Shown here: positions 19,326 to 56,221 of the stretch, piece by piece | How positions within the stretch are numbered: the first letter of the stretch is position 1 | How the letters are laid out: each line of letters begins with the position of its first letter | Assembly: GCF_003151135.1 (NCBI RefSeq) | Contig: NZ_QEQK01000004.1 | Span: forward strand, 186,001-250,000 | Source of the DNA: Abyssibacter profundi | Lineage (GTDB): Bacteria; Pseudomonadota; Gammaproteobacteria; Nevskiales; OUC007 | Length of the DNA: 64,000 bases | Reading direction: 5' to 3' | Position numbers and translations under genes: made by a program | The notes under the pieces: generated by a model | Seen by the model: only the letters and a program-made list of their open reading frames with translations | Databases searched by the model: none | Told to the model about the DNA's origin: nothing

Positions 19326-19789
19326 GGCTGGAGATGGTGAAGCACATCCAGGGGGTGGCGCGCGCCGGCCAGCCAGTCATCAATGCATTGCAACACCATC
19401 GGACTGCGAAGCCGGGCCGCGTTGGCGGCGATCTCATCCCGGCTGGCCCAGTGGGCCCGAACAATGCCCTCGTCCAATGCCTGGTCCGGATGGTGCTGTC
19501 GGACCTCACCGGCGAATGTGACCCGAAGAAAGGTTTCAGCGGCACCGTCGTTGGGCGCGTCAGGACGGGTCCAGACATACAGCCCGACAACGGAGGTCAA
19601 CCGCACATCGACGGCGGCTTCTTCCCGGGTTTCACGAACGGCAGCTTGGAGCAGGGTTTCGTTGGGTTCCCAGTGTCCTGCGGGTTGGTTCCAGCGCAGG
19701 CCGTGCCGGGTCTGCTCTTCCACGAGCAGGAATCGCCCGCCATCCTCAATGACCGTTGCAACCGTGACGTGGGGGTGCCAGCTCACCAC
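19322..19789 (-). CDS. nudJ: Nudix phosphohydrolase NudJ
   Basis: A 155-residue Nudix hydrolase. The Nudix box lies at GHWEPNETLLQAAVRETREE (about residues 38-57), with the metal-binding Glu cluster REtREE complete. The Gly that usually follows EE is Ala, and the helix-capping Gly after that is Val-Asp. NudJ acts on thiamine pyrophosphate precursors and nucleoside di/triphosphates in E. coli, where it also precedes mnmA. The start is a GTG at 19789 or the next GTG at 19786, which would give a GTGA overlap with the gspN stop. The end of the T2SS operon therefore runs straight into nudJ-mnmA. Confidence 0.9.
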   Translation of the reverse strand: MVSWHPHVTVATVIEDGGRFLLVEEQTRHGLRWNQPAGHWEPNETLLQAAVRETREEAAVDVRLTSVVGLYVWTRPDAPNDGAAETFLRVTFAGEVRQHHPDQALDEGIVRAHWASRDEIAANAARLRSPMVLQCIDDWLAGARHPLDVLHHLQP

Positions 19790-20535
19790 TGACCTTGCTG
19801 TCTCAACCGGAACCAGCCTTGGGCGTCGGGGCGACCCAAGGACCCGCTGATGAGGTTGCCAAGCACGGGGTCGGCCGTGCTCCGCAGTTTGAGCCGGCCC
19901 TCCAGGTTGTATCGGCGGCTGGCGGGGTCGACGCGCACCGTCCCCTCCAGTGCGACCGGTCCGCCGGTATCCGACAATGTCCCTACGACGGCGGCTTCTT
20001 CCAGCGCGAAACGGGCTTCGAAGTCGCCGAGCGCGTAGTTCTTGGGCCCGAACGCCCAGGCCAGGTCGCGGACGGTCACCATGGCATCCACCGCCGAAAG
20101 GGCCGAGGGCGTAAAGACCAGTTCGCGAACATCCAGAGCCGCGCCACCGCCAATGCCAATGCCGTCTAACTCGGCCAGACCAAGCAGATCAACAAGATTG
20201 AATCGGCCCTGCACCGCGCTCATGCGCACGCGTCCCCAGGGCGTGGCCGACACCACTGCTGTCACCGGACCGCGAGCCACATCTGCGGTCACCGTCCCGG
20301 CCACCTGTAGCAGTAACAACCGCAGGGGCTGCCATTGCCATGTCAGGTCGGTGGCCACGGCCTGTTGCTGGTACGCCAGCGTGTCGACGCGCGCGTGAAC
20401 CAATGTGCCGTCCAGGCCATGCACGGTGACTGGTGATTGGTCGGGCGCGAACCAGCCATAAACCGTGCGGACCGGCAAGAAGATCACCAAGCCGATGAGC
20501 AGCGCGACAACGAACGCAATGGTTGCACGAATCAT
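19783..20535 (-). CDS. gspN: Type II secretion system protein GspN
   Basis: A 250-residue protein with one N-terminal transmembrane helix (FVVALLIGLVIFLPV, residues 8-22) and a periplasmic beta-rich domain with VHGLDGTLVHARV early on, the usual GspN layout. It ends in GSLGRPDAQGWFRLRQ. GspN is an accessory inner-membrane component of unclear role. Its ATG overlaps the gspM stop (ATGA) and its end overlaps nudJ. Confidence 0.88.
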   Translation of the reverse strand: MIRATIAFVVALLIGLVIFLPVRTVYGWFAPDQSPVTVHGLDGTLVHARVDTLAYQQQAVATDLTWQWQPLRLLLLQVAGTVTADVARGPVTAVVSATPWGRVRMSAVQGRFNLVDLLGLAELDGIGIGGGAALDVRELVFTPSALSAVDAMVTVRDLAWAFGPKNYALGDFEARFALEEAAVVGTLSDTGGPVALEGTVRVDPASRRYNLEGRLKLRSTADPVLGNLISGSLGRPDAQGWFRLRQQGQW

Positions 20536-21035
20536 GGCCGCACCAGCCCGAGGCGCGCTTCAACGAGTCCGGGTTTGCTCTGCCTGCCGACATCGGCCGA
20601 ATCGACTTCGAGACCATGTTGCGTCTCGATCTGGTGTAACCAGCGGACGGCCTGGTTGAATTCGACCCCCTCCAACCAGACGCGAACACGGTTGTCACCC
20701 TCTGGCTGCACGCGGCGGATGCCAGACCCCAACCCGGCCGCTTTGCCGGTCTGGTCAACTACCGCCAACATCGAACGATTCCGATTCGCGGTAGCAGACC
20801 GGTTCGCGCTGCCTGCGCTACGTGCGAGCGGAGCGGCGGCCGCCAGTTCCATGGCCAGGTTTTGTTCCGCCTGAATTTGGTTGCTCAACTGCGCACGCCC
20901 CAAGGCCAGAGGCTCCCAGACCAAGAGGTAGTAAAGCAGGGCCAAGACCACAGCGGCAGCGCCCACAACCAGACGGCGCTCACGTGGCTCCAGCGCCAGA
21001 TAGCGGGCGCGGATCTGCTCCAGTGCCGGACTCAT
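20532..21035 (-). CDS. gspM: Type II secretion system protein GspM
   Basis: A 167-residue bitopic membrane protein: short cytoplasmic start with YLALEPRERRLV, one transmembrane helix (VVGAAAVVLALLYYLLVW, about residues 23-40) and a periplasmic ferredoxin-like fold. GspM pairs with GspL in the inner-membrane assembly platform. It overlaps gspL and gspN by ATGA on both sides. Confidence 0.92.
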   Translation of the reverse strand: MSPALEQIRARYLALEPRERRLVVGAAAVVLALLYYLLVWEPLALGRAQLSNQIQAEQNLAMELAAAAPLARSAGSANRSATANRNRSMLAVVDQTGKAAGLGSGIRRVQPEGDNRVRVWLEGVEFNQAVRWLHQIETQHGLEVDSADVGRQSKPGLVEARLGLVRP

Positions 21036-22234
21036 GCGCCACCCCGCGGGCTGAGCCGCAGTCGGACCTTAACGCCATCTGTTCCAGCATTGGCCGATAA
21101 CACTTCAAGCTCCACCGCGGTCTGCTGGGCGAACTGCTCTCGTAGCCGCTCCAGGGCTTGCAAGTCCTCGCCCTCCAGCCCGATGAACAGCTGGCCGTCG
21201 CGATACTGGAGTTCCGTCATGGCAAAACTGCTGCTGTCTGCAAACGCCTGTTGTGTCTGATCCAGCAGGAACAGGAATCCCTGCGCGTCGTTCGGATTGT
21301 TGAGCTGCCGCAGCTGCTGTTCGAGCTGGGTCCGGACATCGACAATGCGCTGTTCAGCAGGAAACAGTTGCTGGAACTGGGCGATGTTGTCCGCTTCAAG
21401 CGCTTGCAATGTCTGGCGCTTTTGTACGAGATCAACGGCCTGGTAGCCGGTCGCCAGCAGCACCAGGATGCCGCCGATGACAGCGGCTGGCAGCCAGGGG
21501 CGCCACCATTGCGATTGTTCAGCTTGCGGCCGAAAAGCGCCCTGGAGCAGATTCAGCGCCCCATGGCCGGCGTGCGCCCATTGAGCCAGCTGCTCGATCC
21601 CGTCGCGTACCTGGTGTCGAGTGGCATCCGCCGGCAGGCCGGCGGGGGCATCTAAACCGTCTGCAAGCCAGACTTCCGCCGCTTCTGGGTGGTCCAGCTG
21701 CTCCAACGCAATCGCGAGCAACTCGGTGTCCATGGCCAGCGCCTGCCCGTCGGTTTTGAGCAGGCCGCGCTGCGTTTCCAGCCACAGCGCAGTTGATATC
21801 CCGGCTTCCAGCGGGAGTAGCTGCGCATCAAGGTAGGCCGCCTCGACCGTGGCAGCACAGTGCTCGAAGGGGGCCAGATAGGCCTCCAGGCGGTCTGCCC
21901 GAATGGCCGCGACATGATGTCCGCCCTGGGTCGTCTTGCCGCCCAATGCGAAATGCATGGTATCGACGTCGTCCGCCAGCTGCTCCTCGAGCGCGAAGGG
22001 CAGGGCCTGCATCAGACGCGCCCGCTGGCGGACGGGCAAATCCACAGTCGTGATCACAGCATCTTCTGCTGGCAAGAGCAGCACGACGCGGTCATCAGCC
22101 GCAGCTTCGCCGAGCAATGTGGCGAGGCTGGCGCGCTCAACGCGGCCGAATTCGCCGGACGGCTGCCGGACAACAGATGTTGCAGGGACGTCCGGACCTG
22201 GCTGGGTCAGGCGAATGAACAGGGTACGTCGCAC
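21032..22234 (-). CDS. gspL: Type II secretion system protein GspL
   Basis: A 400-residue assembly-platform protein. The cytoplasmic actin-like domain (residues 1 to about 245) binds the secretion ATPase GspE. A single transmembrane helix (WLPAAVIGGILVLLATGYQAV, about 255-275) leads into a periplasmic ferredoxin-like domain that dimerises with GspM. It starts with GTG and no clear Shine-Dalgarno. A 75-base gap from gspK is the largest break in the gsp string, so initiation here may be less efficient or separately controlled. GspE itself is not in the window. Confidence 0.93.
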   Translation of the reverse strand: MRRTLFIRLTQPGPDVPATSVVRQPSGEFGRVERASLATLLGEAAADDRVVLLLPAEDAVITTVDLPVRQRARLMQALPFALEEQLADDVDTMHFALGGKTTQGGHHVAAIRADRLEAYLAPFEHCAATVEAAYLDAQLLPLEAGISTALWLETQRGLLKTDGQALAMDTELLAIALEQLDHPEAAEVWLADGLDAPAGLPADATRHQVRDGIEQLAQWAHAGHGALNLLQGAFRPQAEQSQWWRPWLPAAVIGGILVLLATGYQAVDLVQKRQTLQALEADNIAQFQQLFPAEQRIVDVRTQLEQQLRQLNNPNDAQGFLFLLDQTQQAFADSSSFAMTELQYRDGQLFIGLEGEDLQALERLREQFAQQTAVELEVLSANAGTDGVKVRLRLSPRGGA

Positions 22235-22309: not shown

Positions 22310-23245
22310 TCAGAATGTATCCCGGCTCTGATAGACGACACGCGCCTGGCCCTGCGCGCTGCGGAAGATCAAACTGTACAGTCTCACCCGACCTCTGCCA
22401 ATTGTCGCTTCGCCGTGGACCAGGAAGTAGCGGCTGGAAACCGAGAGCCCCTGGCGATCAACAGCGGGCCCCAGCAAGGCATCGTTGGTGATGGGGTCGA
22501 GTGACTCGGCGGGTTGCTCCGCGCGATTCTCCACGAAGGCTGCAATGTCTCCTGGGGATGGGTTGGCGCTTAGGGCCAGGAGAAGCGCAGGCGGCGCGGT
22601 ATTGATATTGATCGTCGTTTCTTCGGGCAATGCCGTCACCAACGGCTCCAGTGCGGCATAGAGGGCGGGCGTGACTCCGTCGACCAAACGGAGTTCCGAC
22701 ACGCTGGCAAACGGCCTGTTGGCCGCACGGTAGGGCGGTGTTTTGGACAGGTATATTCCGTCTTCTGCGCCGCCGGGAAACCGCGGCTCGACATCCGGAT
22801 CGATCCAGTCCTGAATGGCTGCGACCAGTTGCTCGGGGTCTGGTGTCGGGCTGCCCGATTCCAGGCTCAGACCCAGGATGAGGCGCTGAAAAATCTCGCT
22901 GTAAATCGGATCGGTGCTGGCGAGGTTGTTCAGGTTGAAGCGACCTTGAAGATCGACCATGCCGCCCGTCACCACGCCGTTATCGACCGGCAAGTAGTCC
23001 ACAGGCGTGGCCCAGAATTCGCCGAGATGATCGACCTCACCTTGTTCCCGATCTTTCTCCAGCAAGGTGGTCGCCCAATCCGCCACGCCCCGGGCCACCC
23101 ACCATGCCTGCTCGGAGTGCTTGAGGGCCTCTGTCCTGTGGAAGGCGATATTCTGGCGATAGGCCAGCGATGCTGCTGCGATGCTGGCCAGCGCCATAAC
23201 AAAAATGGCGGTCAGGACCGCGACGCCTTGCTGCGACCGCTTCAT
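22310..23245 (-). CDS. gspK: Type II secretion minor pseudopilin GspK
   Basis: A 311-residue minor pseudopilin forming the tip with GspI and GspJ. The prepilin site is Q-Q-G followed by VAVLTAIFVMALAS. The usual Glu at mature position 5 is absent, as is normal for GspK. The large inserted alpha domain includes the AIQDWIDPDVEPRFPGGAED calcium-site region and FASVSELRLVDGV. It overlaps gspJ by ATGA. Confidence 0.95.
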   Translation of the reverse strand: MKRSQQGVAVLTAIFVMALASIAAASLAYRQNIAFHRTEALKHSEQAWWVARGVADWATTLLEKDREQGEVDHLGEFWATPVDYLPVDNGVVTGGMVDLQGRFNLNNLASTDPIYSEIFQRLILGLSLESGSPTPDPEQLVAAIQDWIDPDVEPRFPGGAEDGIYLSKTPPYRAANRPFASVSELRLVDGVTPALYAALEPLVTALPEETTININTAPPALLLALSANPSPGDIAAFVENRAEQPAESLDPITNDALLGPAVDRQGLSVSSRYFLVHGEATIGRGRVRLYSLIFRSAQGQARVVYQSRDTF

Positions 23246-23874
23246 GTCGCGGACTCTGCCGAGGTAATGCGATAGAGCGCGCGCAGTTCACCCCAGCGAC
23301 GAGTCTCTATCTGTAATTCGATGACACGGGGCGGGGGCGCCGTGAGCGCAGGCGCTCCGGTTGTGGGGTCAGGGATGGGCCATTGATCTTCCCAGTCTGA
23401 TCCTGCTCCGAGAAATCGCCAGTTCAGGTCGATGACATCGTCCAGCAGGATGGTCTTGGTGATGGCGGTGTCCTGCACGCGATCCAGGGTCGCCCAGGCA
23501 TAGCGAACCAGCGCTTCGTCCTCCAGGCCGTAGGCCACGCGCTCCAGGTGACTGATCTGCAATTTCATTGGGTTGCGTCGACCACCTCGTGTGAATTCGA
23601 GACGCTGAAACTCGTCGAGCAGTACCGCAGGTCGGGGGTCACCAAAATCATCTCGAATAGGCCGAGCCCGAATTTGTTCAATGTCCTGCTCCAAGCGGAA
23701 CAAGGCCATTTGAAGCTGACGGGTATCTTCTAAGGAGTCTTCGATGTCGGCCCGTGCGTTGAGCACCGTCATCAGCCCGCCGTAGGCCATGGCAGAAAAA
23801 ATCACGAAGATGGCAATCGCCACCATGAGTTCCAGCAGCGTGAAACCCCGTTGGAGTTTGCCCTGGGGCGTCAT
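23242..23874 (-). CDS. gspJ: Type II secretion minor pseudopilin GspJ
   Basis: 210 residues with the prepilin peptidase site RG-FTLLELMVAIAIF (cleavage after residue 10). The central segment DDFGDPRPAVLLDEFQRLEFTRGGRRNP has the usual GspJ pattern. It is part of the pseudopilus tip complex and overlaps both gspI and gspK by four bases. Confidence 0.95.
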   Translation of the reverse strand: MTPQGKLQRGFTLLELMVAIAIFVIFSAMAYGGLMTVLNARADIEDSLEDTRQLQMALFRLEQDIEQIRARPIRDDFGDPRPAVLLDEFQRLEFTRGGRRNPMKLQISHLERVAYGLEDEALVRYAWATLDRVQDTAITKTILLDDVIDLNWRFLGAGSDWEDQWPIPDPTTGAPALTAPPPRVIELQIETRRWGELRALYRITSAESAT

Positions 23875-24227
23875 GGCTTGGGCAGGAATCCGGACAGTGC
23901 CGCCGCCTGGCGGCCCTGCGCATAGGTGGCCACATCCAGACGGCGCACGTTTTCGTCCGCGGTTTCACTCACCGTGGCCTCCCAGGTCCAGTCCTGACCG
24001 GCAACTTCCACATCACCATCGGAATCACCGGTATCCGGCCATTCGTCGCGGACCTGGAATTCGATCAGTACATTGCGGGCGATCAGCGTGCCGATTGTCA
24101 CGTCGCGAAAACGACCGGCATTGTTGATGGTGGCCGAAGTCGAGACCAGCACGGCAGCCAATGCAATTCCGACCATGGCCACGGCGACAAGCACCTCGAG
24201 CAGGGTGAACCCACGGCTAGTACGCAT
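23871..24227 (-). CDS. gspI: Type II secretion minor pseudopilin GspI
   Basis: 118 residues with prepilin site RG-FTLLEVLVAVAMVGIALA at the very N-terminus, and a short C-terminal domain ending RRLDVATYAQG, as in GspI. The ATG at 24227 is preferred over a TTG two codons upstream. It overlaps gspH by 11 bases. GspI nucleates the pseudopilus tip. Confidence 0.94.
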   Translation of the reverse strand: MRTSRGFTLLEVLVAVAMVGIALAAVLVSTSATINNAGRFRDVTIGTLIARNVLIEFQVRDEWPDTGDSDGDVEVAGQDWTWEATVSETADENVRRLDVATYAQGRQAAALSGFLPKP

Positions 24228-24786
24228 GCTCAACCCGCTGGGTTTCGACCTGGCCCGTCAGGTCGGTTTCGACTCGGTACGCAATGTCGGAGTCGGGAAG
24301 GACCACGGTGAGCTCGAACGGGGTCATTTCACCGGTGGACAGGAACAGTACATCGGGTTCGAGAGCCTCCGGTGCGTCCTCGTCATCCTCGGTTTGTTGA
24401 TCGGGGGTGGGCAGGGAAAACCGGTTCTCCCGATCCAGTGAAACCGCCAGGCGTAGTTCGAGGGGTTCCTGTAGCTGACGTTGCCGCAAAGGTCCGTCGG
24501 CCGGTGCCCAGCCACGATCCGTTAGCACTAGAAACGCATATTCGCGCTGCGCCACGGCCAGGCCATAGTCTTCACCGAAGATGATGGCGCGTTCTCCGGC
24601 CAGCCGGATCAGTTCGGCCATCCGCCGCGCTTCGAGTTCGACCTGATCACTGCGGCCGCGGCCGCTGACAGACAGCGCGGCAAGCGTGACGATGATGCCG
24701 ATGATGAAGATCACCACGATCAGCTCGATGAGCGTGAACCCACGGCAACGGGCCGCGGCGGGCGAAGGGCCGCGGTAAGGCGACAT
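24217..24786 (-). CDS. gspH: Type II secretion minor pseudopilin GspH
   Basis: 189 residues with prepilin site CRG-FTLIELIVVIFIIGII (cleavage after residue 16), then a beta-sandwich with RMAELIRLAGERAIIFGEDYGL typical of GspH. A very acidic loop (TEDDEDAPEALEPD) sits in the C-terminal half. GspH links the tip to the GspG filament. Eight bases separate it from gspG. Confidence 0.94.
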   Translation of the reverse strand: MSPYRGPSPAAARCRGFTLIELIVVIFIIGIIVTLAALSVSGRGRSDQVELEARRMAELIRLAGERAIIFGEDYGLAVAQREYAFLVLTDRGWAPADGPLRQRQLQEPLELRLAVSLDRENRFSLPTPDQQTEDDEDAPEALEPDVLFLSTGEMTPFELTVVLPDSDIAYRVETDLTGQVETQRVEHAY

Positions 24787-24794
24787 TCGAGTCG

Positions 24795-25241
24795 TTATCC
24801 GCCAGTCTGCCAGTTGCCGATATCGGCATTGGCGCCGTCACCACCCGGGCGACCGTCCGCGCCGAGACTGTAGACGTCGATATCCGACTTCGAGCCCGGC
24901 GAAAGGTAAAGGTAGTCGTTCCCCCAAGGATCCTTGGGCACGCTACGCAGGTAACCGCCTTCCTTCCAGTTGCGGGCCGGCGGCTCGCCACTGGGCTGTC
25001 GCACCAGGGCCTCCAAGCCTTGCTGCGTGCTGGGGTAGTGGTAGTTATCCAGGCGATACATGTCCAATGCCGCCTCGATTGCTCGCACGTCCTGTCGTGC
25101 CTTGGCTGCCCGCGCCTTGTCAGGATTGTCCATAATGCGCGGCACTGCGACGGCCGCGAGTATCCCGAGTATGACCACGACGACCATGACTTCGATCAAG
25201 GTGAAGCCGGACTGTCGCGTAAGACGCTGATTGGAACGCAT
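24795..25241 (-). CDS. gspG: Type II secretion major pseudopilin GspG
   Basis: 148 residues, the main subunit of the pseudopilus that pushes folded substrates through the outer-membrane secretin. The prepilin site is SG-FTLIEVMVVVVILGILAA (cleavage after residue 12). The conserved YPSTQQGLEALV and WGNDYLYLSPG follow, and the C-terminal calcium loop reads GADGRPGGDGANADIGNW. It is the first gene of this gsp string. gspC, D, E and F, which usually precede it, are not in the window; a divergent gene starts 28 bases away. Confidence 0.97.
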   Translation of the reverse strand: MRSNQRLTRQSGFTLIEVMVVVVILGILAAVAVPRIMDNPDKARAAKARQDVRAIEAALDMYRLDNYHYPSTQQGLEALVRQPSGEPPARNWKEGGYLRSVPKDPWGNDYLYLSPGSKSDIDVYSLGADGRPGGDGANADIGNWQTGG

Positions 25242-25268
25242 GTTAAACCGTCAAGACTGGAAGAAAAC

Positions 25269-25904
25269 GTGGTCGCGATCATAGCAAACCAGGGTGGGTT
25301 GAAGCGGCAGGAATGGCTGTTTCCCGCGCTGCTGGGCCTCGTGATTCTGGCGCTGGCCTGTCTGGGCGAATGGGGACGCGAGTGGCTGCGATTCGATCAT
25401 GCTGCAGTCGCCCAGGGGCAGTGGTGGCGGATCTGGACGGGACATCTCGTCCATGCGAGCTGGTACCACCTGTTACTCAACGGAACGGGTTTGGTCATTC
25501 TGGTGTTGCTCTGTCCTGAGACGATTCGCCTGTCGTGGTGGATGCTTCGTTTCCTGCTCATGGCGGTTATGACCAGTGCAGGCCTGTACTGGTTTGGTGA
25601 GGGGATGCAGTGGTACGTTGGTTTGTCAGGGCTCATGCACGGATTTTTCTTGCTGGGCCTGCGACAACCGGCCCTGCGCGGTGACTGGATTGCGGTGGCC
25701 TGCCTGGTCTACCTGGTGGGCAAGCTGCTGTGGGAAGAGTTCATCGGCATCACGGTGTCCAACGAAGCCGCCATCGGCGTGCCGGTTGCCACGCGTTCTC
25801 ACTTGTTCGGGGCTTTGGCCGCGCTGCCATTAATGTGGGCCGAATGGCGCTGGCCGAATGCCGCCGAAGCACCGGCCGCGGATGCAGCGTCTGGTAGCGA
25901 CTAG
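25269..25904 (+). CDS. rrtA: Rhombosortase-type rhomboid intramembrane protease
   Basis: A 211-residue membrane protein with about six helices. Rhomboid residues are visible: WYHLLLNG (H67, N71), GLSGLMHG with catalytic Ser120 and H124, and RSHLFG with catalytic His178. The small size, the GxSGxxHG form and the absence of extra domains fit rhombosortase, which cleaves the C-terminal GlyGly-CTERM signal of proteins exported by type II secretion. Divergence from gspG by 28 bases and two GlyGly-CTERM-type proteins in the same window strengthen the call. The start is a GTG with GGAAG five bases upstream; a TTG at 25299 is an alternative. A longer reading to 25020 would overlap gspG and is rejected. 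Confidence 0.82.
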   Translation: MVAIIANQGGLKRQEWLFPALLGLVILALACLGEWGREWLRFDHAAVAQGQWWRIWTGHLVHASWYHLLLNGTGLVILVLLCPETIRLSWWMLRFLLMAVMTSAGLYWFGEGMQWYVGLSGLMHGFFLLGLRQPALRGDWIAVACLVYLVGKLLWEEFIGITVSNEAAIGVPVATRSHLFGALAALPLMWAEWRWPNAAEAPAADAASGSD

Positions 25905-25952
25905 ATCAAGAGCAAAACAGACCAAGAACAACAGAACTGAACGGAGTCGAGA

Positions 25953-26882
25953 TTGAGCAAGACAATCATGCTGTTCCCCGGGCAGGGGTCGCAAAGCGTC
26001 GGGATGTTGGATGCCTTCATCGACGCCTCGTCGGTGGTCCGCCAGACGCTGGACGAGGCAGACGAGGCGTTGGGGTATGCGCTGTCGGCCTTGATTCGAC
26101 AAGGTCCGTCCGACGAGTTGGATCGCACGGAACACACCCAGCCGGCCATGCTGGCGGCCGATGTCGCACTGTATCGGCACTGGACAGAAGCCGGTGGCGC
26201 GCAGCCGGTGGCGGTTGCCGGTCATAGCTTGGGTGAATACGCAGCCCTGGTCGCCGCCAACGTCTTAAGCTTTGCGGATGCGCTGCGCTTGTCGCGTGTT
26301 CGTGCCCAGGCCATGCAGGCGGCGGTGAAAGAAGGTGAGGGCGCCATGGCGGCGGTGGTGGGATTGGAGGACGCCGCAGTCCAGGTCCTATGCGACCAGT
26401 ACGCAGAGGACGATGTGCTGGAACCCGTAAACTTCAACGCGCCTGGGCAGGTTGTTATCGCCGGTCACGCCAGCGCGGTGGCGCGCGCCAGTGAACACGC
26501 CAAGGCCCATGGGGCCCGTATGGTGGTCAAATTGCCGGTCAGCGTGCCGTCGCATTGCCGACTGATGGGACCAGCGGCCGATCGACTGCGGGAGGCGCTG
26601 GATGCGCTGGCCCTTGCCGAGCCCACGTGTCCGGTGATCCAGAATGTCTCCGCGGCGCCCGCCGATAACCTGCAGGTGCTCCGTGAACAATTGATCGAAC
26701 AGGTCCGCGCCCCCGTGCGCTGGGTTGAAACCATCGAGTACCTGGCGGGCATGGGCGACGTGCGTTTCCTGGAATGCGGCCCAGGCAAAGTGTTAACGGG
26801 TTTAATGCGACGGATTAACCGCGCTTTGCCGGCCACGAGTTTGGCCACACCCGAGGCCATGCAACAGGCTCTGACCGCCTAA
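25953..26882 (+). CDS. fabD: Malonyl-CoA:ACP transacylase FabD
   Basis: A 309-residue enzyme that loads malonyl groups onto acyl carrier protein. It has FPGQGSQ at residues 8-14, the nucleophile motif GHSLGEY near residue 91 and the catalytic His in VSVPSHCRLM near residue 200. It starts with TTG, supported by GGAG eight bases upstream and by normal family length. plsX and fabH, which usually come before fabD, are missing; the rhombosortase gene is there instead. Confidence 0.97.
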   Translation: MSKTIMLFPGQGSQSVGMLDAFIDASSVVRQTLDEADEALGYALSALIRQGPSDELDRTEHTQPAMLAADVALYRHWTEAGGAQPVAVAGHSLGEYAALVAANVLSFADALRLSRVRAQAMQAAVKEGEGAMAAVVGLEDAAVQVLCDQYAEDDVLEPVNFNAPGQVVIAGHASAVARASEHAKAHGARMVVKLPVSVPSHCRLMGPAADRLREALDALALAEPTCPVIQNVSAAPADNLQVLREQLIEQVRAPVRWVETIEYLAGMGDVRFLECGPGKVLTGLMRRINRALPATSLATPEAMQQALTA

Positions 26883-26896
26883 AACGGAGTGACTCC

Positions 26897-27655
26897 ATGA
26901 CCGAGAACACATCAAGTCAGCCGCTGGCCGGCCAGGTCGCACTGGTGACCGGTGCATCCAGAGGTATCGGTGCGGCAATTGCCCGCAAGTTGGGCGAGCA
27001 GGGCGCCGAAGTCATCGGTACGGCGACCAGTGCCGCCGGCGCAGGCCGCATCGGTGAGGCCCTGGCTCAGTACGGGGGGCGTGGCGCTGAACTCGATGTC
27101 ACGGATGCAGCGGCCTGCGACGCCCTGATCAAGCAGGTGGCGGCCGAATCTGGCGCTGTTCAGCTACTGATCAACAATGCGGGTATCACGCGTGACAACA
27201 TCTTCCTGCGGATGAAGGACGAGGATGTCATGGACGTGCTACAGGCCAATCTTGTGGGCGCCATTCGCCTGTCTCGCCTGGTGCTGCGCGGCATGATGAA
27301 AGCGCGAGCCGGGCGCATCGTGAACATCGGATCCGTCGTGGGTTCAACGGGCAACGCCGGCCAGGTGAACTATGCCGCGAGTAAGGCCGGCCTGCTGGGT
27401 GCCACGCGTTCGCTGGCGGCGGAGATCGGTTCGCGAAACATTACCGTTAATGCAGTGGCTCCCGGGTTTATTGCCACGGATATGACAGACGTGCTCGATG
27501 AAGGCACGCGTGAGTCACTGCTAGGCAGCATTCCGCTTGGCCGTCTCGGCGCGCCGGAGGAGATCGCCGAGGCGGTGGCATTTCTCTGTGGTCCGGGCGC
27601 GGGCTACATCACGGGTACGACCTTGCACGTCAATGGTGGGATGTTCATGGCGTGA
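26897..27655 (+). CDS. fabG: 3-oxoacyl-ACP reductase FabG
   Basis: A 252-residue short-chain dehydrogenase that reduces 3-oxoacyl-ACP with NADPH. TGASRGIGAAIA (about residues 18-29) binds the cofactor, NNAG follows near 94, and the catalytic Ser-Tyr-Lys are in GSVVGS and YAASKAG. CGGAG precedes the ATG. 14 bases after fabD. Confidence 0.97.
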   Translation: MTENTSSQPLAGQVALVTGASRGIGAAIARKLGEQGAEVIGTATSAAGAGRIGEALAQYGGRGAELDVTDAAACDALIKQVAAESGAVQLLINNAGITRDNIFLRMKDEDVMDVLQANLVGAIRLSRLVLRGMMKARAGRIVNIGSVVGSTGNAGQVNYAASKAGLLGATRSLAAEIGSRNITVNAVAPGFIATDMTDVLDEGTRESLLGSIPLGRLGAPEEIAEAVAFLCGPGAGYITGTTLHVNGGMFMA

Positions 27656-27769
27656 GCCGCGATGCGACCCTGGGGCGAGGCAGGCTAGCCGCGCCTCCCG
27701 GGTTCCCATACAATGGCGCGCCCCGGCGTGAGGACGCCGAGTTACCGTATTTTTGAGGAGTTAGTTCGG

Positions 27770-28015
27770 ATGAGCGGAATGGAAGATCGGGTCAAGAAAA
27801 TCATCGCCGAGCAGCTGAGCGTCTCGGAAGAGCAGATCACACCCGAGGCCTCGTTCGTCGACGACCTGGGGGCTGACTCCCTGGATACCGTCGAACTCGT
27901 GATGGCTCTGGAAGAAGAATTCGAAATCGATATCCCGGACGAAGAAGCCGAGAAGATCGTCACCTTCCAGCACGTCATTGAATACATCAAGGCGAATGCC
28001 CCCGACGCGAGCTAA
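27770..28015 (+). CDS. acpP: Acyl carrier protein
   Basis: An 81-residue acidic carrier. The 4'-phosphopantetheine attachment Ser is in [12 protein letters not shown]. The ATG at 27770 has GAGGAG ten bases before it and gives the normal length; a longer reading from 27713 would add 19 unrelated residues. A TACAAT at 27709-27714 in the 114-base gap after fabG is a plausible -10 for a private acpP promoter, but no good -35 is seen. Codon choice is strongly biased, as expected for a highly expressed gene. Confidence 0.98.
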
Positions 28016-28076
28016 TCAGCTCGCGTTTTCTTTGGCGCTGCCGCGCCACACCTAATCTGTCTAGCAGACTGTTTCC

Positions 28077-29315
28077 ATGAAGCAACGTGTCGTTGTCACT
28101 GGAATGGGCGTCATCTCGCCCGTGGGCTCAACGCTGAGCGATGCGTGGTCTCGCGTCGTCGAGGGGCGGTCGGGGATTCGGACCATCGAATCCTATGACG
28201 TGAGTCAGTATCCGACCCGTTTTGCAGGTCTGGTAGACGGGTTCGATGCCGACGCCTACCTCGGGGCGCGCGAACAGCGACGGACCGATGCCTTCGTGCA
28301 TTACGGCATTGCGGCCGCCAAACAGGCGGTGGAACATGCCGGCCTGGACATTGCCGCCAATGCGGACCGCATCGGCGTGAATATCGGATCCGGTATTGGC
28401 GGCATCGGCACCATTGAGCAGAACGCGGTCCTGCTGGAAAAGACCGGATCCACAAAGAAGATTTCGCCATTCTTCGTTCCGTCTTCCATCATCAACATGG
28501 TGTCGGGCTACGTGTCCATCATGCTGGGTGCGCGTGGTCCCAATCTGGCCACGGTTTCGGCCTGCGCGACTTCGGCGCATAGCATCGGCCTGGGCGCACG
28601 GATGATTGCTCACGGCGATGCCGACGTCATGATTGTCGGTGGCGCGGAAGCGGGATCCAGCCCGATGGGGCTGGCCGGGTTCTGTGCGGCACGTGCGATG
28701 TCGACGCGAAATGAGGCGCCGACCGAAGCCAGCCGGCCCTGGGATCGTGACCGTGACGGCTTCGTGCTGGCCGATGGTGCCGCTGTGCTCGTCATCGAAT
28801 CCGAAGCCCATGCGAAAGCACGCGGCGCCGAGATCCTGGGCGAGCTTGCAGGGTTCGGCATGAGCGGCGACGCCTACCACGTCACGCAACCCGCGGACGA
28901 TGGCAATGGCGCGGCTCGGGCCATGCAAGCGTCGCTGGCGGATGCCGGTGTGCGGCCAGAACAAGTGGGCTATATCAATGCCCACGCCACCTCCACCAAA
29001 GTGGGAGATGTGGCAGAAACGCAGGCCATCAAAGCCGTGTTCGGCGATCACGCCAGCAGCCTGCCGGTGAGTTCCACTAAATCCGTGACGGGACATCTGC
29101 TGGGCGCAGCCGGGGGCATCGAGGCAGTGTTCTCGGTTTTGGCGATGCGCGATGGCGTATTGCCACCGACGATTAATTTGCATGACCCCGACGATGGTTG
29201 CGATCTTGATTACGTGCCCAACGAGGCGCGCGAGGTATCGGTGGATTGCGTGTTGTCCAACTCTTTCGGGTTCGGGGGGACGAATGCGTCACTGGTGTTC
29301 CGCCGGTACGTCTGA
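28077..29315 (+). CDS. fabF: 3-oxoacyl-ACP synthase II FabF
   Basis: A 412-residue condensing enzyme that elongates acyl-ACP. The Cys-His-His triad is in VSACATSAHSIG (Cys near 162), INAHATSTKVGD and KSVTGHLLGAAGG. The N-terminus KQRVVVTGMGVISPVG is canonical. No clear Shine-Dalgarno precedes the ATG. It lies 61 bases after acpP in the usual order. Confidence 0.97.
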   Translation: MKQRVVVTGMGVISPVGSTLSDAWSRVVEGRSGIRTIESYDVSQYPTRFAGLVDGFDADAYLGAREQRRTDAFVHYGIAAAKQAVEHAGLDIAANADRIGVNIGSGIGGIGTIEQNAVLLEKTGSTKKISPFFVPSSIINMVSGYVSIMLGARGPNLATVSACATSAHSIGLGARMIAHGDADVMIVGGAEAGSSPMGLAGFCAARAMSTRNEAPTEASRPWDRDRDGFVLADGAAVLVIESEAHAKARGAEILGELAGFGMSGDAYHVTQPADDGNGAARAMQASLADAGVRPEQVGYINAHATSTKVGDVAETQAIKAVFGDHASSLPVSSTKSVTGHLLGAAGGIEAVFSVLAMRDGVLPPTINLHDPDDGCDLDYVPNEAREVSVDCVLSNSFGFGGTNASLVFRRYV

Positions 29316-50018: not shown

Positions 50019-50279
50019 ATGAAGTGCATCGTGCTACGCAGCCGTCGTCATGACGAACTTTATGTTTTCGTTCCGGAGGACACCGAGATCACTGAGCTGC
50101 CTGAGTCCTTGCGTCAGCTCACCGGCCCGCTGGATGAAGCGATGCGCCTGACGCTCACGCCGGACCGCAAGCTCGCGCGGTCCGACGTGACAGCCGTGCT
50201 GGCCGGGCTGAAGGAACAGGGCTACTACGTGCAAATGCCCCCCAACCCGATCCAGCCCCGCCTCTACCGCGGCGACTGA
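50019..50279 (+). CDS. YcgL-domain protein
   Basis: An 86-residue protein beginning MKCIVLRSRRHDELYVFVPE with later LTPDRKLARSDVTAVLAGLKEQGYYVQMPP, a conserved small gammaproteobacterial family of unknown function. The ATG at 50019 is chosen by family alignment; upstream ATG 49983 has no better ribosome site. Its 3' end overlaps the convergent secreted-protein gene by 16 bases. Confidence 0.88.
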   Translation: MKCIVLRSRRHDELYVFVPEDTEITELPESLRQLTGPLDEAMRLTLTPDRKLARSDVTAVLAGLKEQGYYVQMPPNPIQPRLYRGD

Positions 50280-53200
50280 CGCCGGCGCCGAAGCAGCGTT
50301 AGACCCAGCAGCGCCATCAGTCCGCTACCCAGCGCACCGCCTGCACCCGCTGGCGCAGAGGGAGACGGCACCACCGGTGGATTCCCGGCATCGTCGAAGC
50401 TATAACTCCAGATATGGCGGCCGAAGGTCGACGCGAACACCCGGTTCGGGTCCGCCGGGTCCTGGACGATTTGGGTCACCACCACATTGGGCAGGCTGTC
50501 ACCACCGAGCACCGACCACTCGGAGCCATCCGTGTCCGAGGAAATAAACGTCCCCAGGTCGGTCCCGATCAGCAGTTGACCTGCCCGCAGCAGCACGGTG
50601 TTGGTGTGGACCTCTGGCAGGTTGCCTGAAATGTTGACGAAGCTTTCGCCGCCATCGGTGGACTTGAAGACATTGCCCGTACCGATATTCGGGTTGGTGT
50701 CGAGATAAGAGCCCGGCGGCACCCACTCGCGACCGGCGTAGCCACCCAGGGTCACGTAAATGGTCTGCGGATCGGCCGGATCCTGCTCGATCGCGGTGAT
50801 GTAGCGGTTAGGCAGCCCCTCGGCCGCGGTGAAATGCCAGCCATCCGAGGTGCCGGGATTCGGCGGCAGGTCGCCATTGACATTGGTCGCAATGCCATTG
50901 CCGAAGCCCAGGTCCCATCGACCCAGAATGTCGCATACGCCACAGAAGCCCACGTAGGCGTTGCCATCGCGCAAATGAATTGTGGACATTTGCCGCAGCC
51001 CGCCGGTCTCGGAGTTGCCGAGGTCAAAGACCTCATCCCAGTTCCCCGTTTCCCGCCCGGTCAGCGTCTGCACAATGTTCGAGCCGCCGGTCATCACGTG
51101 CTCGGCATTGGTCTCATCCATGGTGAACCAGTTGGCGAACATGGGATTGGAGACGCCCGCACCCGCACCCGAGAAGCTGAGCCCGCCGTCAACGGTGACA
51201 TTCAAACCGCCGTTCTGCGTGGTCAAATAGGCGTAATGACTGTCGTCCGGATCAACCGCGGCGTAAAACCCGTCGCCACCCAGTGTCTGGAACATCTCCC
51301 GGGTGTCACCGTCGATGAAACCAGAACCGTTGTCCTGCAGGCCAAAGTACACGCGGCCGTCTTTGGCCACGGCCAGACCATAGGGCAGCAAGGTGTAGAA
51401 GCCCTCGTTGTGTCCGCGGGCCCAGCCATCGTTGTCCAGCTCTTCCCCTGCGCCGACACACTGTCGATACACGCCGCCATCGTTACCGGCGAAAAAGCAG
51501 ACACCCCCGTCAGGTGTGCCGGTTTCATCCGTGGTTGGAATCCAGATGCCGTCGTGCTGGTCAGGGTGCGTGGTCGTGCCCGGCAGCGGTGACGTGTTGG
51601 TCGGACAGGTCGGAACCCCGGACAAGGCCAGTTGACAGGTGTCCCCGCGGAAGTACACGCCAATGACTTCGTAGTCCGAGGTGCCAGGCCCCTGCAGCAC
51701 GCCATCCTGCGGGATGTTTGCGGTTGTCACCGACTGCCACACCTCTTCCAAGCCGAACATCAGCCGGGTGGGCACGCCGCCACCGAGGGCATCACTACGC
51801 GTGGGATCGGGTGAAATCCAGAGGTTGTACCAAGCTTGGACGCCGGGTCCGTTGATGGCTGCCAGCGCCGCCAGGCCGGAACCCGCCGCCGGGTTCAGAA
51901 TTTCGGGGTCATCAGCCAGGCGCATCCAGCTATCGCCGAAATCAGTGGATGCGTAGATGCCGTTGAATGCCGTGCCATTAATCGAGCCGACACCCTCGCC
52001 GTTGCCCGGGTCCGGTGCGTCCAGCACGCCGATCCCGCCGTTAAAGAGCACCGCATCTTCAACAATGGCGTAAACGACGTTGTGATCCTGGTCCGGGCCG
52101 GTTGCCTGGCCCAGTTCCACCCGACCGATGCGTTCCTGTGTGGTGAAGCCGACCGGTGACAGTCCGTCGCCCGATACGTCCAGCTTGACGAAGCTATCCG
52201 GGTCGCCTGAATCCGAGCGATACAACCCGTTACCTGGCGAATGAATCGTGCCGTCCGGGAAGGTCAGCAATCCCGCGCGGTAACCGACGGCGGCTAACAC
52301 CACGCCCCCGGCCTCGTCGGTGAGCCCGCCGGGTGTCTTGACGACAACATCGGTGACAAAGTTTGCAAACTGACAGGGACCAAGCTCCGTCACGCCGGCG
52401 CATTCTGGCGACGTGGGCAAGTTCACGTTGACGAAGCTGCTGCCGGCGTCGAACGACTTGAACAAGCCCTTGGATGTGGCCACATAGACTTCGTCGGAGT
52501 CCGCTTCATTGACAGCGACCTCGAAACCAAGCGCGGCATCGGGTAGCCCGGTCGACTGATTCCAGGTTTGGCCGAGGTCATCCGACCAGAATCCGCCCAG
52601 GCCGACGTATGCGCTCCCGCCCATCGTGTGTTCACCCGTGATGACCACCAAGCGCGACGGGCGTGAGTCCTTGGCTGGGATGAACTCAATGGCACCGGTG
52701 CTCAAGGTCGGCAGGCCATCGCCAATTGGAACCCAGAAGTCACTGAGCTGGTCGACCGAGTCGGCCTCGCTCATCCAAATGCCACCGGTTCCCACGGCAG
52801 CAAACAATCGCTTGTTCTCCGAATCATAGGCGAAGCTATCGACCCGCCCCATGGACGTGCCGATGCCGAGACCGGATGTGCCGAAACGCTCGTCATCCGT
52901 GATGAGCGGACCCGTGCCGTACTCAATCCATTGACCATCGGCCCCAGCGACGGCCTTGTCGCCCAGCATCGCCTGCTTGCGCTCCACCGCACTCCGGAAA
53001 GCGCCCGGCGCAACAATCCCGACACCGGGAGACCGCGCCTGCTGTGCCTGCTGAACCTCGAGAAAAGGTTCGGGGTGCTTGTCGCTGAGGCAGGCCTGTT
53101 CCCCGTATTGGTCCCGCAGGGCCTGCGCTTGATCAGGACTCAGGTCTGGGCGAAATTCCCTGGCATAAGCCACGGGATCAGCCAGATGCATACCTGGTGG

Positions 53201-53296
53201 GCAAAGCGTGGCCTGCGCCGGATCGGCCAGGTCGTAGACGAACACGGCCGACGCCGCCACGGCACCGGCGGCCGCAATTCCAAAGAGTTTGTTCAC
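50264..53296 (-). CDS. Secreted Asp-box beta-propeller protein with GlyGly-CTERM tail
   Basis: A 1010-residue secreted protein. A signal peptide (cleavage near PAQA-TL, residue 29) is followed by a sialidase/VPS10-like propeller with five Asp-boxes: SDDLGQTW (near 236), SFDAGSSF (near 283), STDFGDSW (near 450), TVDGGLSF (near 700) and STDGGESF (near 880). Several Cys pairs suggest disulfides. The C-terminus is Gly-rich (GAGGALGSG), then a short hydrophobic helix, then RRRR: the GlyGly-CTERM layout read by rhombosortase after type II secretion. GTG start preceded by GGGGA. Catalytic residues of true sialidases were not recognised, so it may bind sugar or protein. Adhesin or surface-anchored hydrolase are both possible. 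Confidence 0.85.
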   Translation of the reverse strand: MNKLFGIAAAGAVAASAVFVYDLADPAQATLCPPGMHLADPVAYAREFRPDLSPDQAQALRDQYGEQACLSDKHPEPFLEVQQAQQARSPGVGIVAPGAFRSAVERKQAMLGDKAVAGADGQWIEYGTGPLITDDERFGTSGLGIGTSMGRVDSFAYDSENKRLFAAVGTGGIWMSEADSVDQLSDFWVPIGDGLPTLSTGAIEFIPAKDSRPSRLVVITGEHTMGGSAYVGLGGFWSDDLGQTWNQSTGLPDAALGFEVAVNEADSDEVYVATSKGLFKSFDAGSSFVNVNLPTSPECAGVTELGPCQFANFVTDVVVKTPGGLTDEAGGVVLAAVGYRAGLLTFPDGTIHSPGNGLYRSDSGDPDSFVKLDVSGDGLSPVGFTTQERIGRVELGQATGPDQDHNVVYAIVEDAVLFNGGIGVLDAPDPGNGEGVGSINGTAFNGIYASTDFGDSWMRLADDPEILNPAAGSGLAALAAINGPGVQAWYNLWISPDPTRSDALGGGVPTRLMFGLEEVWQSVTTANIPQDGVLQGPGTSDYEVIGVYFRGDTCQLALSGVPTCPTNTSPLPGTTTHPDQHDGIWIPTTDETGTPDGGVCFFAGNDGGVYRQCVGAGEELDNDGWARGHNEGFYTLLPYGLAVAKDGRVYFGLQDNGSGFIDGDTREMFQTLGGDGFYAAVDPDDSHYAYLTTQNGGLNVTVDGGLSFSGAGAGVSNPMFANWFTMDETNAEHVMTGGSNIVQTLTGRETGNWDEVFDLGNSETGGLRQMSTIHLRDGNAYVGFCGVCDILGRWDLGFGNGIATNVNGDLPPNPGTSDGWHFTAAEGLPNRYITAIEQDPADPQTIYVTLGGYAGREWVPPGSYLDTNPNIGTGNVFKSTDGGESFVNISGNLPEVHTNTVLLRAGQLLIGTDLGTFISSDTDGSEWSVLGGDSLPNVVVTQIVQDPADPNRVFASTFGRHIWSYSFDDAGNPPVVPSPSAPAGAGGALGSGLMALLGLTLLRRRRQSPR

Positions 53297-53626
53297 TGGG
53301 GTTCCCCGAGCATTCCAAGATGGTCGATCGACGCTAGGCTAATCAACCTGCGTGCCAAGTGACGGCTTGTTCAACCGTCGACATCGTCAGGCGCTCGCCA
53401 ATCGAGTTCACTCAGGTTAACTTAATTTTAAGCAAGCACTGAATGAAACCCTCCGCCGCGCGCCCGTCGGGCCCTGTGGGTCAACCGGATTCGGCCTGTT
53501 GAAAGGCGGCATTCAGCATTTTTTGTGACGGCATGCTTGTTGCTGGCCGTCCGGATTATCCCCACGACCTGATGTCATCCGTTCGAAGGTCCTTCTTCGA
53601 TGGGATGGATGACCGGAAACAACCTC
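53297..53626. promoter_or_regulatory. Shared control region of two divergent secreted-protein genes
   Basis: About 330 bases between the Asp-box protein gene and the metalloprotease gene, with no credible gene. An AT-rich stretch includes the inverted repeat CTTAA-TT-TTAAG (53421-53432) and a further imperfect inverted repeat CTGAATG (about 53440) / CATTCAG (about 53512) followed by T6. Promoters for both genes should lie here; no clear -35/-10 pair was identified. Confidence 0.45.
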
Positions 53627-56221
53627 ATGATGACGACACGACTCTTGGCGCCGGCATTGGCGGCCCTATCTCTGCTGGCCGCAACCGCCAGCGCCAGTCC
53701 CGACCGCGGTGTACGCCTGGCGCAGCTGCAGGCACAGGCCGGCGACGCGCTGACGGTGGTCCACCGCCCACATCAGCAATTCGCCCTGCTCCGCGCCGCT
53801 TCCGACCAGCCGCTCATCGCCTTAGATGCCAGCGCGCCGCCACTGGAGCGCGCATTGCAGGCGCTGGGCCAGTTCGGGGAGACGCTGGGCGTGCAGCGCG
53901 CCGATCAGGCGTTTGTTCTGAATCGCGTCAGCCACGACGCAGCAGGCGGCACGCATGTGCACCTGGATCAGGTCCATCGCGGCGTGCCCGTGTTTGCGGC
54001 ACGCGTCGTTGTGCATCTAGATGATCGCGGTGCTCGCGGGATCAGCGGTGTCGTCATCGAGGGTTTAGAGGCGCTGAACACGGCACCGTATAAATCGGCG
54101 GCACAGGCTGAGTCCCGGGCGCTGGCCATGGCCCGGAAGCACCACTCTGGTGCAAACCCGGTTGTCGAATCAACGCGCCTCGTGTACTACCGCCATGGAC
54201 TGCTGCGCGGCATTCCCGGGAGCAACCACCTCGCCTACGAGGTGAATGTGGTCGATGCCTACCGCCGGGCCGAAGACCCCGTGCGTGAGCAAATCATCGT
54301 CGACGCCAACTCCGGTGTGGTGCTGAACCGCATCGATCGCATTCACCGAACCCTGAATCGCGAAATCTACACCCCGACCTTGGACGTGCCGCCGGTGGTC
54401 ACCGAGGGCAGCGCGCTGGCTCCGGCCGATCCTGAGTTTGCCGGTGACGTGACGGGCTCATCGCGGATTCCAGCCACGCCAACTGACAATCTCTACATTT
54501 TTGCCGGCGGCACCTACGCGCTCTACGACAACATGTTCGGTTATGCCGGTTATGACCATGGGGCGGTTGCGCCTGAAGAGCAGGTGCAGCGCAGCGTTTA
54601 TCTGATTAATCAGAACTGCCCGAATGCGTACTGGGACGGCGTGTCGACCAACTACTGCCCCGGCTTCGATGCGGATGACATCGTCAGCCACGAGTGGAGT
54701 CACGGCTACACCGAGTACACCCATGGTTTGATTTATCAATACCAGTCCGGTGCCTTGAACGAGTCGTACTCCGATATCTACGGCGAGATGTACGACCTGA
54801 TCAACGGCCTGGAGGGCCCGCTGGGCGCCACGCTGACAGAGGGTGAATACTTTGAGAACGGGGGCAGTCGTTGGGTACTCGGCGAGGACCTGAGCGAGGC
54901 CGCTGCCGGTCTCTTACTGCGCGATATGTGGGATCCGGACAACTTTGGCGCCAATGTCCCAATTCTGGGTATTCCGGTGCTGTCCACGCCCTCGCCCGGC
55001 AGCGTGATCACCTCTGAAAATTATTATTGCGCCACAGGCGATAACGGCGGCGTTCACACCAACTCGGGGGTTCCAAACCATGCCTTTGCGATGCTGGCTG
55101 ATGGCAAGTCCTTCAACGGCGTTGATATTCCCGCCATCGGCATGATCAAGGCCGCGCATATCTACTTTCATGCCGCGACCCATTACCAGACGCCCAGCAC
55201 CACGTTTCCCCAACATGCGGATGCGCTGGAGCAGTCCTGTGCGGATCTGACAGGAGTTCCGCTGAACGACTACTTTGGTGAGGTTTCGGGCGACATCATC
55301 ACCGCAGCCGATTGCGACGCTGTGGCCGCGGCCATGCTAGCGGTCGAGATGCGTGAGGATCCCACCGAAAAATGCGGCTACTTGCCGGTCTTGGCGCCGG
55401 AGGCCGAAACTCCGGCAATTTGTGGTGAAGACGAAGTCGCGTCGGTGTCCTTTAGCGAAGACTTCGAGTCCGGCAGTCTGCCGGCGGACTGGGTGTTGAC
55501 TAGCGTCGGCGCCACAGCAGATTGGCCCGACACCCACTGGGAGATTTCGGCCGATGTGCCTGGAGATCGCTCAGCCTACGCGGCTTTTGCGCTGGATTCG
55601 CTGGAGGGCAGTTGTGCGCCGGGTGGCGACATCTCGGGTCAGTTCTCCATGGACACCCCGGCCATCACCGTGAACGACACGGATACCCATTTCGAGTTCA
55701 CGCACTTCGTTCAAACCGAAACGAGCTGGGACGGGGGCAATCTAATGGTCAGCGTAAACGGCAGCGCTTTCTCGGTCGTGGATGCTGCCGCATTCGTTCA
55801 TAACCCCCATGGCGCACCGCTGAATGATGCGACCGTGGATGGCAACACCAATCCGAAGGCCGGTGAGGCGGCCTGGCACGGTTCCGATCAGGGATTTGCG
55901 ACCGGTAGCTGGGGCACCACCATCGTTGACCTAACGCAGCTCGCCAGCGCCGGTGACACCGTGCAGTTTCGCTGGGACTTCGGTCAAGATGGCTGCAACG
56001 GGAACCTGGGTTGGTTTGTTGACGACGTCAAGGTACTCGGCTGTGTTGCTGATGTGGGCAACGGCTCGGGTGGGAGCAATGGCGGGTCCGGAGGTGGATC
56101 GGGTGGTGGTTCATCGCCTGACAGCGTATCCGGTGGCGGCAGCCTGACTGGAGGCGCCTCACTCGCCTTGTTGCTGATGGCGGGTGCACGCCTGCGACGC
56201 CGGCGTCGGCACATGAACTAG
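53627..56221 (+). CDS. Secreted M4 (thermolysin-type) metalloprotease with GlyGly-CTERM tail
   Basis: An 864-residue secreted zinc protease. Signal peptide (LAALSLLAATASA, cleavage near residue 22), a fungalysin/thermolysin propeptide with PepSY (about 30-245), then the M4 domain. Zinc site HEWSH (355-359) with the third ligand Glu379 (LNESYSDIYGE), and the catalytic His477 in DNGGVHTNSG. A C-terminal beta-sandwich domain (about 610-800) precedes a Gly/Ser linker, GGGSLTGGAS, a hydrophobic helix and RRRRRHMN: GlyGly-CTERM layout. ATG 53627 has GGAA eight bases upstream; 53600 is also in frame. It probably exits by type II secretion and is processed by rhombosortase. Confidence 0.92.
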   Translation: MMTTRLLAPALAALSLLAATASASPDRGVRLAQLQAQAGDALTVVHRPHQQFALLRAASDQPLIALDASAPPLERALQALGQFGETLGVQRADQAFVLNRVSHDAAGGTHVHLDQVHRGVPVFAARVVVHLDDRGARGISGVVIEGLEALNTAPYKSAAQAESRALAMARKHHSGANPVVESTRLVYYRHGLLRGIPGSNHLAYEVNVVDAYRRAEDPVREQIIVDANSGVVLNRIDRIHRTLNREIYTPTLDVPPVVTEGSALAPADPEFAGDVTGSSRIPATPTDNLYIFAGGTYALYDNMFGYAGYDHGAVAPEEQVQRSVYLINQNCPNAYWDGVSTNYCPGFDADDIVSHEWSHGYTEYTHGLIYQYQSGALNESYSDIYGEMYDLINGLEGPLGATLTEGEYFENGGSRWVLGEDLSEAAAGLLLRDMWDPDNFGANVPILGIPVLSTPSPGSVITSENYYCATGDNGGVHTNSGVPNHAFAMLADGKSFNGVDIPAIGMIKAAHIYFHAATHYQTPSTTFPQHADALEQSCADLTGVPLNDYFGEVSGDIITAADCDAVAAAMLAVEMREDPTEKCGYLPVLAPEAETPAICGEDEVASVSFSEDFESGSLPADWVLTSVGATADWPDTHWEISADVPGDRSAYAAFALDSLEGSCAPGGDISGQFSMDTPAITVNDTDTHFEFTHFVQTETSWDGGNLMVSVNGSAFSVVDAAAFVHNPHGAPLNDATVDGNTNPKAGEAAWHGSDQGFATGSWGTTIVDLTQLASAGDTVQFRWDFGQDGCNGNLGWFVDDVKVLGCVADVGNGSGGSNGGSGGGSGGGSSPDSVSGGGSLTGGASLALLLMAGARLRRRRRHMN

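Follow-up and report, generated by a model that had tools for sequence, protein, structure and literature searches.

A rhombosortase gene beside the type II secretion genes of Abyssibacter profundi and the probable history of its position

Introduction

The closest described relative of the system analysed here is RssP of Vibrio cholerae, a rhombosortase of the curated family TIGR03902. In V. cholerae an exported protein is first anchored in the inner membrane by its C-terminal tail, which the rhombosortase cuts after the second Gly (Gadwal et al. 2018, PMC6219818; PMC13393428). The substrate VesB then carries a glycerophosphoethanolamine moiety at its new C-terminus and is exported to the surface by the type II secretion system (T2SS) (PMC6219818, PMC13393428). 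The rssP gene is reported to be constitutive (PMC11389362). A survey by Haft and Varghese in 2011 counted thirteen GlyGly-CTERM proteins per genome at most and gave no evidence tying rhombosortase to a T2SS subclass; its Table 3 contains loci in which a rhombosortase has a single substrate (PMC3237569).

We followed up an original prediction on a 64,000-nucleotide stretch of the Abyssibacter profundi genome (contig NZ_QEQK01000004.1, positions 186,001 to 250,000, here called the window), according to which a rhombosortase-type protease is encoded divergently from T2SS genes. The locus shares with RssP the curated family, a Ser/His dyad with the same spacing, a single copy above the family cut-off that would serve many tails, and the presence of a T2SS (PMC3237569, PMC6219818, PMC11389362, PMC13393428). 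It differs in having the gene flanked by gspG and fabD, and in being known from sequence alone. With the one-substrate loci it shares a conserved genetic linkage of rhombosortase, but their neighbour is a single substrate, whereas in the present case the secretion machinery takes that place and the candidate substrates are dispersed. Our preferred reading, to which we give a probability of about 0.82, is that the enzyme trims some 20 tails, that its adjacency to gspG was inherited, and that its position ahead of the fatty-acid genes came about through an inversion.

Identity of the rhombosortase

The reading frame is intact (Table 1). Its product scores 137.1 bits (E 4.5e-40) against the rhombosortase equivalog model TIGR03902, which has a cut-off of 84 and is its sole NCBIfam match, and it is the single protein of the genome above this cut-off. 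The general Rhomboid domain of Pfam, PF01694, also matches, with 38.4 bits. The profile search that had been proposed as a check agrees with the prediction of a rhombosortase-type protease, and the best match is not to an ordinary GlpG-type rhomboid. All four residues that the original prediction had named, the Ser120/His178 dyad together with H67 and N71, are found where it placed them. Across two alignments, one of 14 and one of 37 sequences, H67, S120 and H178 are invariant and N71 is invariant or nearly so. The spacing between the catalytic Ser and His is 58 residues, exactly as in RssP of V. cholerae (S102/H160; PMC6219818).

An AlphaFold2 model of the protein (pLDDT 90.9) has the rhomboid six-helix fold, which is thus predicted and not taken from a solved structure. 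A sequence search of the PDB found no solved chain resembling the rhombosortase. The top structural matches of the model are all GlpG structures (PDB 2IC8 and others, TM-score 0.5-0.6), and the E. coli rhomboid has the same kind of catalytic dyad. GlpG belongs to another family, with about 17-19 percent identity, and the genome has a separate rhomboid (G000:C1:205866, where G000 is the own genome), which reaches 38 bits only against TIGR03902. The predicted fold and the PF01694 match would also suit a GlpG-type rhomboid without any link to C-terminal sorting, lying beside gspG by accident. Considering the TIGR03902 score, the weak score of the ordinary rhomboid, the GlyGly-CTERM proteins of this genome and the recurrence of the gspG adjacency in 23 families outside the order, we find this extremely improbable, and we rejected the ordinary GlpG assignment on the score and the genome-wide tails. 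Judged by its sequence, the product is a genuine but ordinary rhombosortase, an enzyme of a known kind.

We infer the position of the GTG start, and the in-frame reading frame stays open further upstream, antisense through gspG. A start near 25269 is credible because a GGAAG lies about 8 nt 5' of the GTG and because the ATG of the closest relative, an Abyssibacter MAG (L224/L100), aligns three codons inside.

Table 1. Features of the window discussed in the text, with the evidence for each.
Feature	Position	Strand	Evidence or remark
Rhombosortase gene	25269..25904	+	GTG start, 211 aa; TIGR03902, PF01694, AlphaFold2 model
His67 codon (25467-25469) to Asn71 codon (25479-25481)	25467..25481	+	alignments
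Catalytic Ser120 codon (TCA)	25626..25628	+	invariant Y-x-G-x-S-G motif
Catalytic His178 codon	25800..25802	+	invariant in alignments
27-bp spacer between divergent gspG and rhombosortase starts	25242..25268	.	sequence
gspG, major pseudopilin	24795..25241	-	TIGR01710, 200.6 bits
gspH	24217..24786	-	TIGR01708, 95.8 bits
gspI	23871..24233	-	TIGR01707, 79.5 bits
gspJ	23242..23874	-	TIGR01711, 114.6 bits
gspK	22310..23245	-	NF037980, 283.7 bits
gspL	21032..22234	-	TIGR01709, 240.1 bits
gspM	20532..21035	-	PF04612, 127.8 bits
gspN	19783..20535	-	PF01203, 99.3 bits
fabD, 48 bp 3' of rhombosortase	25953..26882	+	TIGR00128, 347.7 bits
fabG, acpP, fabF	26897..29315	+	ORFs and conserved order in relatives; names not from HMM
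Candidate substrate, VPS10/sortilin-like propeller	50264..53296	-	tail AGAGGALGSGLMALLGLTLLRRRRQSPR, tail match 50279-50356
Candidate substrate, M4 metallopeptidase	53600..56221	+	tail GGGSLTGGASLALLLMAGARLRRRRRHMN, tail match 56123-56209

Candidate substrates

A profile search of the genome found 14 sites above the cut-off of the GlyGly-CTERM model TIGR03501; a genome empty of such proteins, which would have spoken against the original prediction, is not what we see. At least six further tails were recognised by their tripartite shape, either among MYXO-CTERM matches or among those scoring under the cut-off. With overlaps removed there are 20 candidate tail sites, two of which are fragments at contig ends, compared with at most 13 in the genomes surveyed in 2011. 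Pfam domains of the tail-bearing proteins include subtilase (S8), trypsin-like, M4, S15-like, PhoD and GDPD domains, and also PKD, thrombospondin-3, Calx-beta and fibronectin domains. This is the type of cargo expected of a T2SS. Three of the GlyGly-CTERM tails are near-identical (G000:C1:401829, C14:98 and C23:3129, two of them at contig ends) and represent either a repeated family of PKD proteins or collapsed assembly repeats.

The two putative substrates in the window exist and have the expected tail architecture, which by eye is tripartite: a G-rich motif, a hydrophobic stretch and RRRR. Neither reaches the GlyGly-CTERM cut-off of 15.5 bits for TIGR03501, so that this part of the original prediction stands by shape and not by score. 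The MYXO-CTERM model TIGR03901 gives 19.0 bits for the propeller protein and 16.2 bits for the metallopeptidase, both under its cut-off of 20.

The myxosortases are a protease family unrelated to rhombosortase. The MYXO-CTERM system resembles the present one in that a tripartite C-terminal tail is removed by an intramembrane protease, and differs in the invariant Cys of its tail motif (PMC11980579), which we found in neither of the window tails. Some tails of this genome fit the MYXO-CTERM profile better, without its Cys, and this is a difference from the V. cholerae system.

Neighbourhood of the gene

The starts of rhombosortase and gspG are divergent and 28 bases apart, as the original prediction had it. 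A sigma-70-like promoter was found nowhere in 24700-26100, a search in which promoters of other kinds would not show. With no promoter-like site in the spacer, we rejected a shared promoter as a demonstrated fact, and the shared regulatory spacer of the original prediction stays a conjecture. Both the spacing and the start codons differ among relatives. Directly 3' of the rhombosortase, on the same strand, lies the fatty-acid operon fabD-fabG-acpP-fabF, which was absent from the original prediction.

The genes gspCDEF are found on another contig, apart from gspG-N (G000:C8:92474-99292, equal to L206:6474-13292), where they stand between the clpA region and plsX. Here gspF runs head-on against plsX, which is followed by maf-, HAD- and rluC-like ORFs, the region that is normally found upstream of fabD. 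Two secretin-like matches below the gspD cut-off (G000:C5:147360-148622 and C1:95374-96114) probably belong to pilus or other secretins.

Conservation within the order

The nearest named relative is the Abyssibacter MAG, with 74 percent identity, and other near named relatives are the Nevskiales Solimonas, Nevskia, Panacagrimonas, Hydrocarboniphaga and Sinimarinibacterium. Rhombosortase is found above the cut-off in 41 of 61 genomes of the order, the own genome included. All 40 relatives whose surroundings were read keep the order gspN-G (reverse), rhombosortase, fabD. This does not single out the rhombosortase, because the whole block from mnmA-gspN through gspG-rhombosortase-fabD to holB is mostly conserved as well, and we discounted conservation within the order as evidence of coupling for this reason. 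Taking the aligned FabD start as the end point, 27 of the 40 relatives have a gap of no more than 14 nt between rhombosortase and fabD, and in 17 the two genes overlap. Because of these short gaps, a transcriptional coupling appears more evident with fabD than with gspG, as far as sequence can tell.

The presence of rhombosortase goes along with that of its tails. GlyGly-CTERM hits occur in 34/41 rhombosortase-positive genomes of the order and in 2/20 negative ones, both of the latter being drafts with 88 and 91 percent completeness. In one family (f6), none of the 17 genomes gives a GlyGly-CTERM hit at E 0.05, and rhombosortase is likewise absent above the cut-off. Two of these (L204, L205) have a contiguous gspC-N cluster with gspF adjoining gspG, and in five (plsX loci L339, L342, L344, L351 and L354) plsX is followed by a clpA-like ORF. 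This fits an exchange of the T2SS in which rhombosortase and tails were lost together, though it is a single lineage.

Conservation across the class

Among 369 sampled genomes of Gammaproteobacteria, 127 contain a rhombosortase at E <= 1e-20 (126 above the cut-off) and 241 contain gspG. The latter is present in 119 of the 127 genomes with rhombosortase, compared with 122 of the 242 others. The rhombosortase-positive genomes from outside the order number 125 and belong to 70 families, and gspG lies immediately divergent from the gene in at least 41 of these genomes and 23 of these families (27 of 80 loci read and 14 of 47 further genomes placed by coordinates); these adjacency counts are lower bounds, as contigs end near the gene in some genomes. 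The adjacency that the original prediction had called notable is therefore real and conserved, both in the order and far beyond it.

The far side of the gspG-linked genes varies: fabD and gspF stand there in 8 loci each, and others have unrelated genes such as recG-like ORFs. Outside the order, gspG is thus the constant partner of linked rhombosortases and the downstream neighbour changes. In the 8 loci with gspF, the gene interrupts an otherwise contiguous gspC-N cluster in reverse orientation, with gspF on one side and gspG on the other (L124, L138, L139, L151, L152, L158, L179 and L192), at a distance from gspF of up to about 2.4 kb in two of them. In one family (L170 = G213, and G418) it lies beside gspG on the same strand; the locus read places it between gspF and gspG in L170, and G418 was placed by coordinates. 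In a further family (L181) it is directly upstream of gspC. Linkage to fabD is also seen in many named Woeseiaceae MAGs. A linkage to gspG is not required, because outside the order the gene lies elsewhere in about two thirds of the genomes that contain it, among them named Psychromonas, Colwellia and Paraglaciecola. Two genomes, G407 and G366 (L188, L189, L196, L197), contain two rhombosortases each above the cut-off, none of them beside T2SS genes.

Origin of the arrangement

We propose that the ancestral rhombosortase gene stood in reverse orientation at the gspF/gspG boundary of a gspC-N cluster, and that a later inversion had its breakpoints between gspF and rhombosortase and just upstream of fabD. 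Such an inversion would have left gspG-N and rhombosortase ahead of fabD, and gspCDEF facing plsX. Starting from the reversed form, an inversion whose ends lie directly behind gspF and directly in front of fabD yields both observed junctions. One inversion explains gspG/rhombosortase/fabD as well as gspF/plsX, because both orientations come out as observed.

Of 20 genomes sampled from the order, 12 show the reciprocal junction, with gspF and plsX no more than 1.5 kb apart. It is also found in G005 (L341), a genome with neither a rhombosortase above the cut-off nor, at E 0.05, any GlyGly-CTERM hits, possibly due to a secondary loss of rhombosortase. In G239, outside the order, plsX-fabH faces gspF with fabH still attached (fabH was named by eye from sequence here and below), and in G099 and G226 gspF and plsX share a contig and point towards each other over distances of 5 and 11 kb. 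Two genomes with the reversed form, G074 and G279, have plsX-fabH-fabD together and un-inverted. Counting against the inversion, plsX no longer adjoins gspF in G044, G045 and G028.

In a tree of rhombosortases with 94 rows, 7 of 91 inner branches are starred, and at this poor resolution it does not separate a single from a repeated origin. The arrangement labels are clustered on it, with 24 changes compared with a shuffled mean of 38.6. We infer the direction of the rearrangement to be from the reversed gspF/gspG form to the inverted one. The rhombosortase and the T2SS genes had probably been passed on together for a long time when the position ahead of the fatty-acid genes arose. Descent from a reversed insertion between gspF and gspG is a better explanation of the adjacency than a regulatory spacer.

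This history raises the question whether the arrangement is more than what a single insertion and a single inversion have left behind, a neutral relic kept by phylogenetic inertia and without any present coupling of rhombosortase to the T2SS. Several observations agree with such a relic: within the order the entire mnmA-holB block is kept and not just the pair, the two systems are apart in many genomes, the adjacency label clusters on the tree, and rssP of V. cholerae is reportedly constitutive (PMC11389362). A pure relic would sit less well with the other families, in which the gspG side is kept while the far side changes between fabD, gspF, recG-like ORFs and others, with the codirectional genes beside gspG (L170, G418) and the one upstream of gspC (L181), or with the joint absence of rhombosortase and tails from a family with a contiguous T2SS. 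We consider it a serious possibility, though one that we would not favour.

Another possibility is that the meaningful partner is fatty-acid synthesis. The rhombosortase, heading the fab operon, would consume phosphatidylethanolamine as acceptor, and its dose would follow lipid synthesis. The short distance to fabD on the same strand, down to overlaps in relatives, the fabD linkage in 8 loci outside the order and in the Woeseiaceae MAGs, and the modification of VesB (PMC6219818) could all be read in this way. Nevertheless, the fabD position can be explained as a by-product of the inversion, beyond the order fabD is not the neighbour of most T2SS-linked rhombosortases, and the use of an acceptor by the enzyme itself is unproven. 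We find this link improbable.

Discussion

Returning to our preferred reading, and arguing by homology with RssP of V. cholerae, the protein would act in the inner membrane as a serine protease of the rhomboid type. Its substrates, about 20 hydrolases and adhesins exported by the Sec route, would be held in the same membrane, where the rhombosortase would cut their GlyGly-CTERM tails. The new C-terminus might be passed to a phosphoethanolamine lipid, and the T2SS would then carry the cleaved proteins to the cell surface. The gene is now probably the first of the fab transcript, and heading this block would give it a steady expression, like that of rssP. A broader suggestion is that rhombosortase is an accessory of a definable gammaproteobacterial T2SS lineage. 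It would have entered the gspC-N cluster once, at the gspF/gspG boundary, and would have disappeared along with its substrates when this type of T2SS was replaced. In this order and related ones, the lipid anchoring of its products would be the reason for a further tie to fatty-acid synthesis. As a whole we regard this as rather unlikely.

The enzyme was already known, and the new part is the gene-order history, with a recurrent position of rhombosortase at the T2SS cluster. An origin of rhombosortase in a T2SS cluster is described in none of the open papers searched, and for the gspF/rhombosortase/gspG arrangement the only related open paper, on Acinetobacter, describes a pair of substrate and rhombosortase instead. 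Such an origin thus appears to be undescribed in the open papers searched, and within that literature our results give the first concrete genomic tie of rhombosortase to a particular organisation of the T2SS. They lead to the prediction that in many environmental Gammaproteobacteria rhombosortase may be a dedicated front-end of the T2SS. Solimonas, Nevskia and Abyssibacter, as environmental systems with several to many candidate substrates, would be suitable for studying the order of cleavage, lipid attachment and export.
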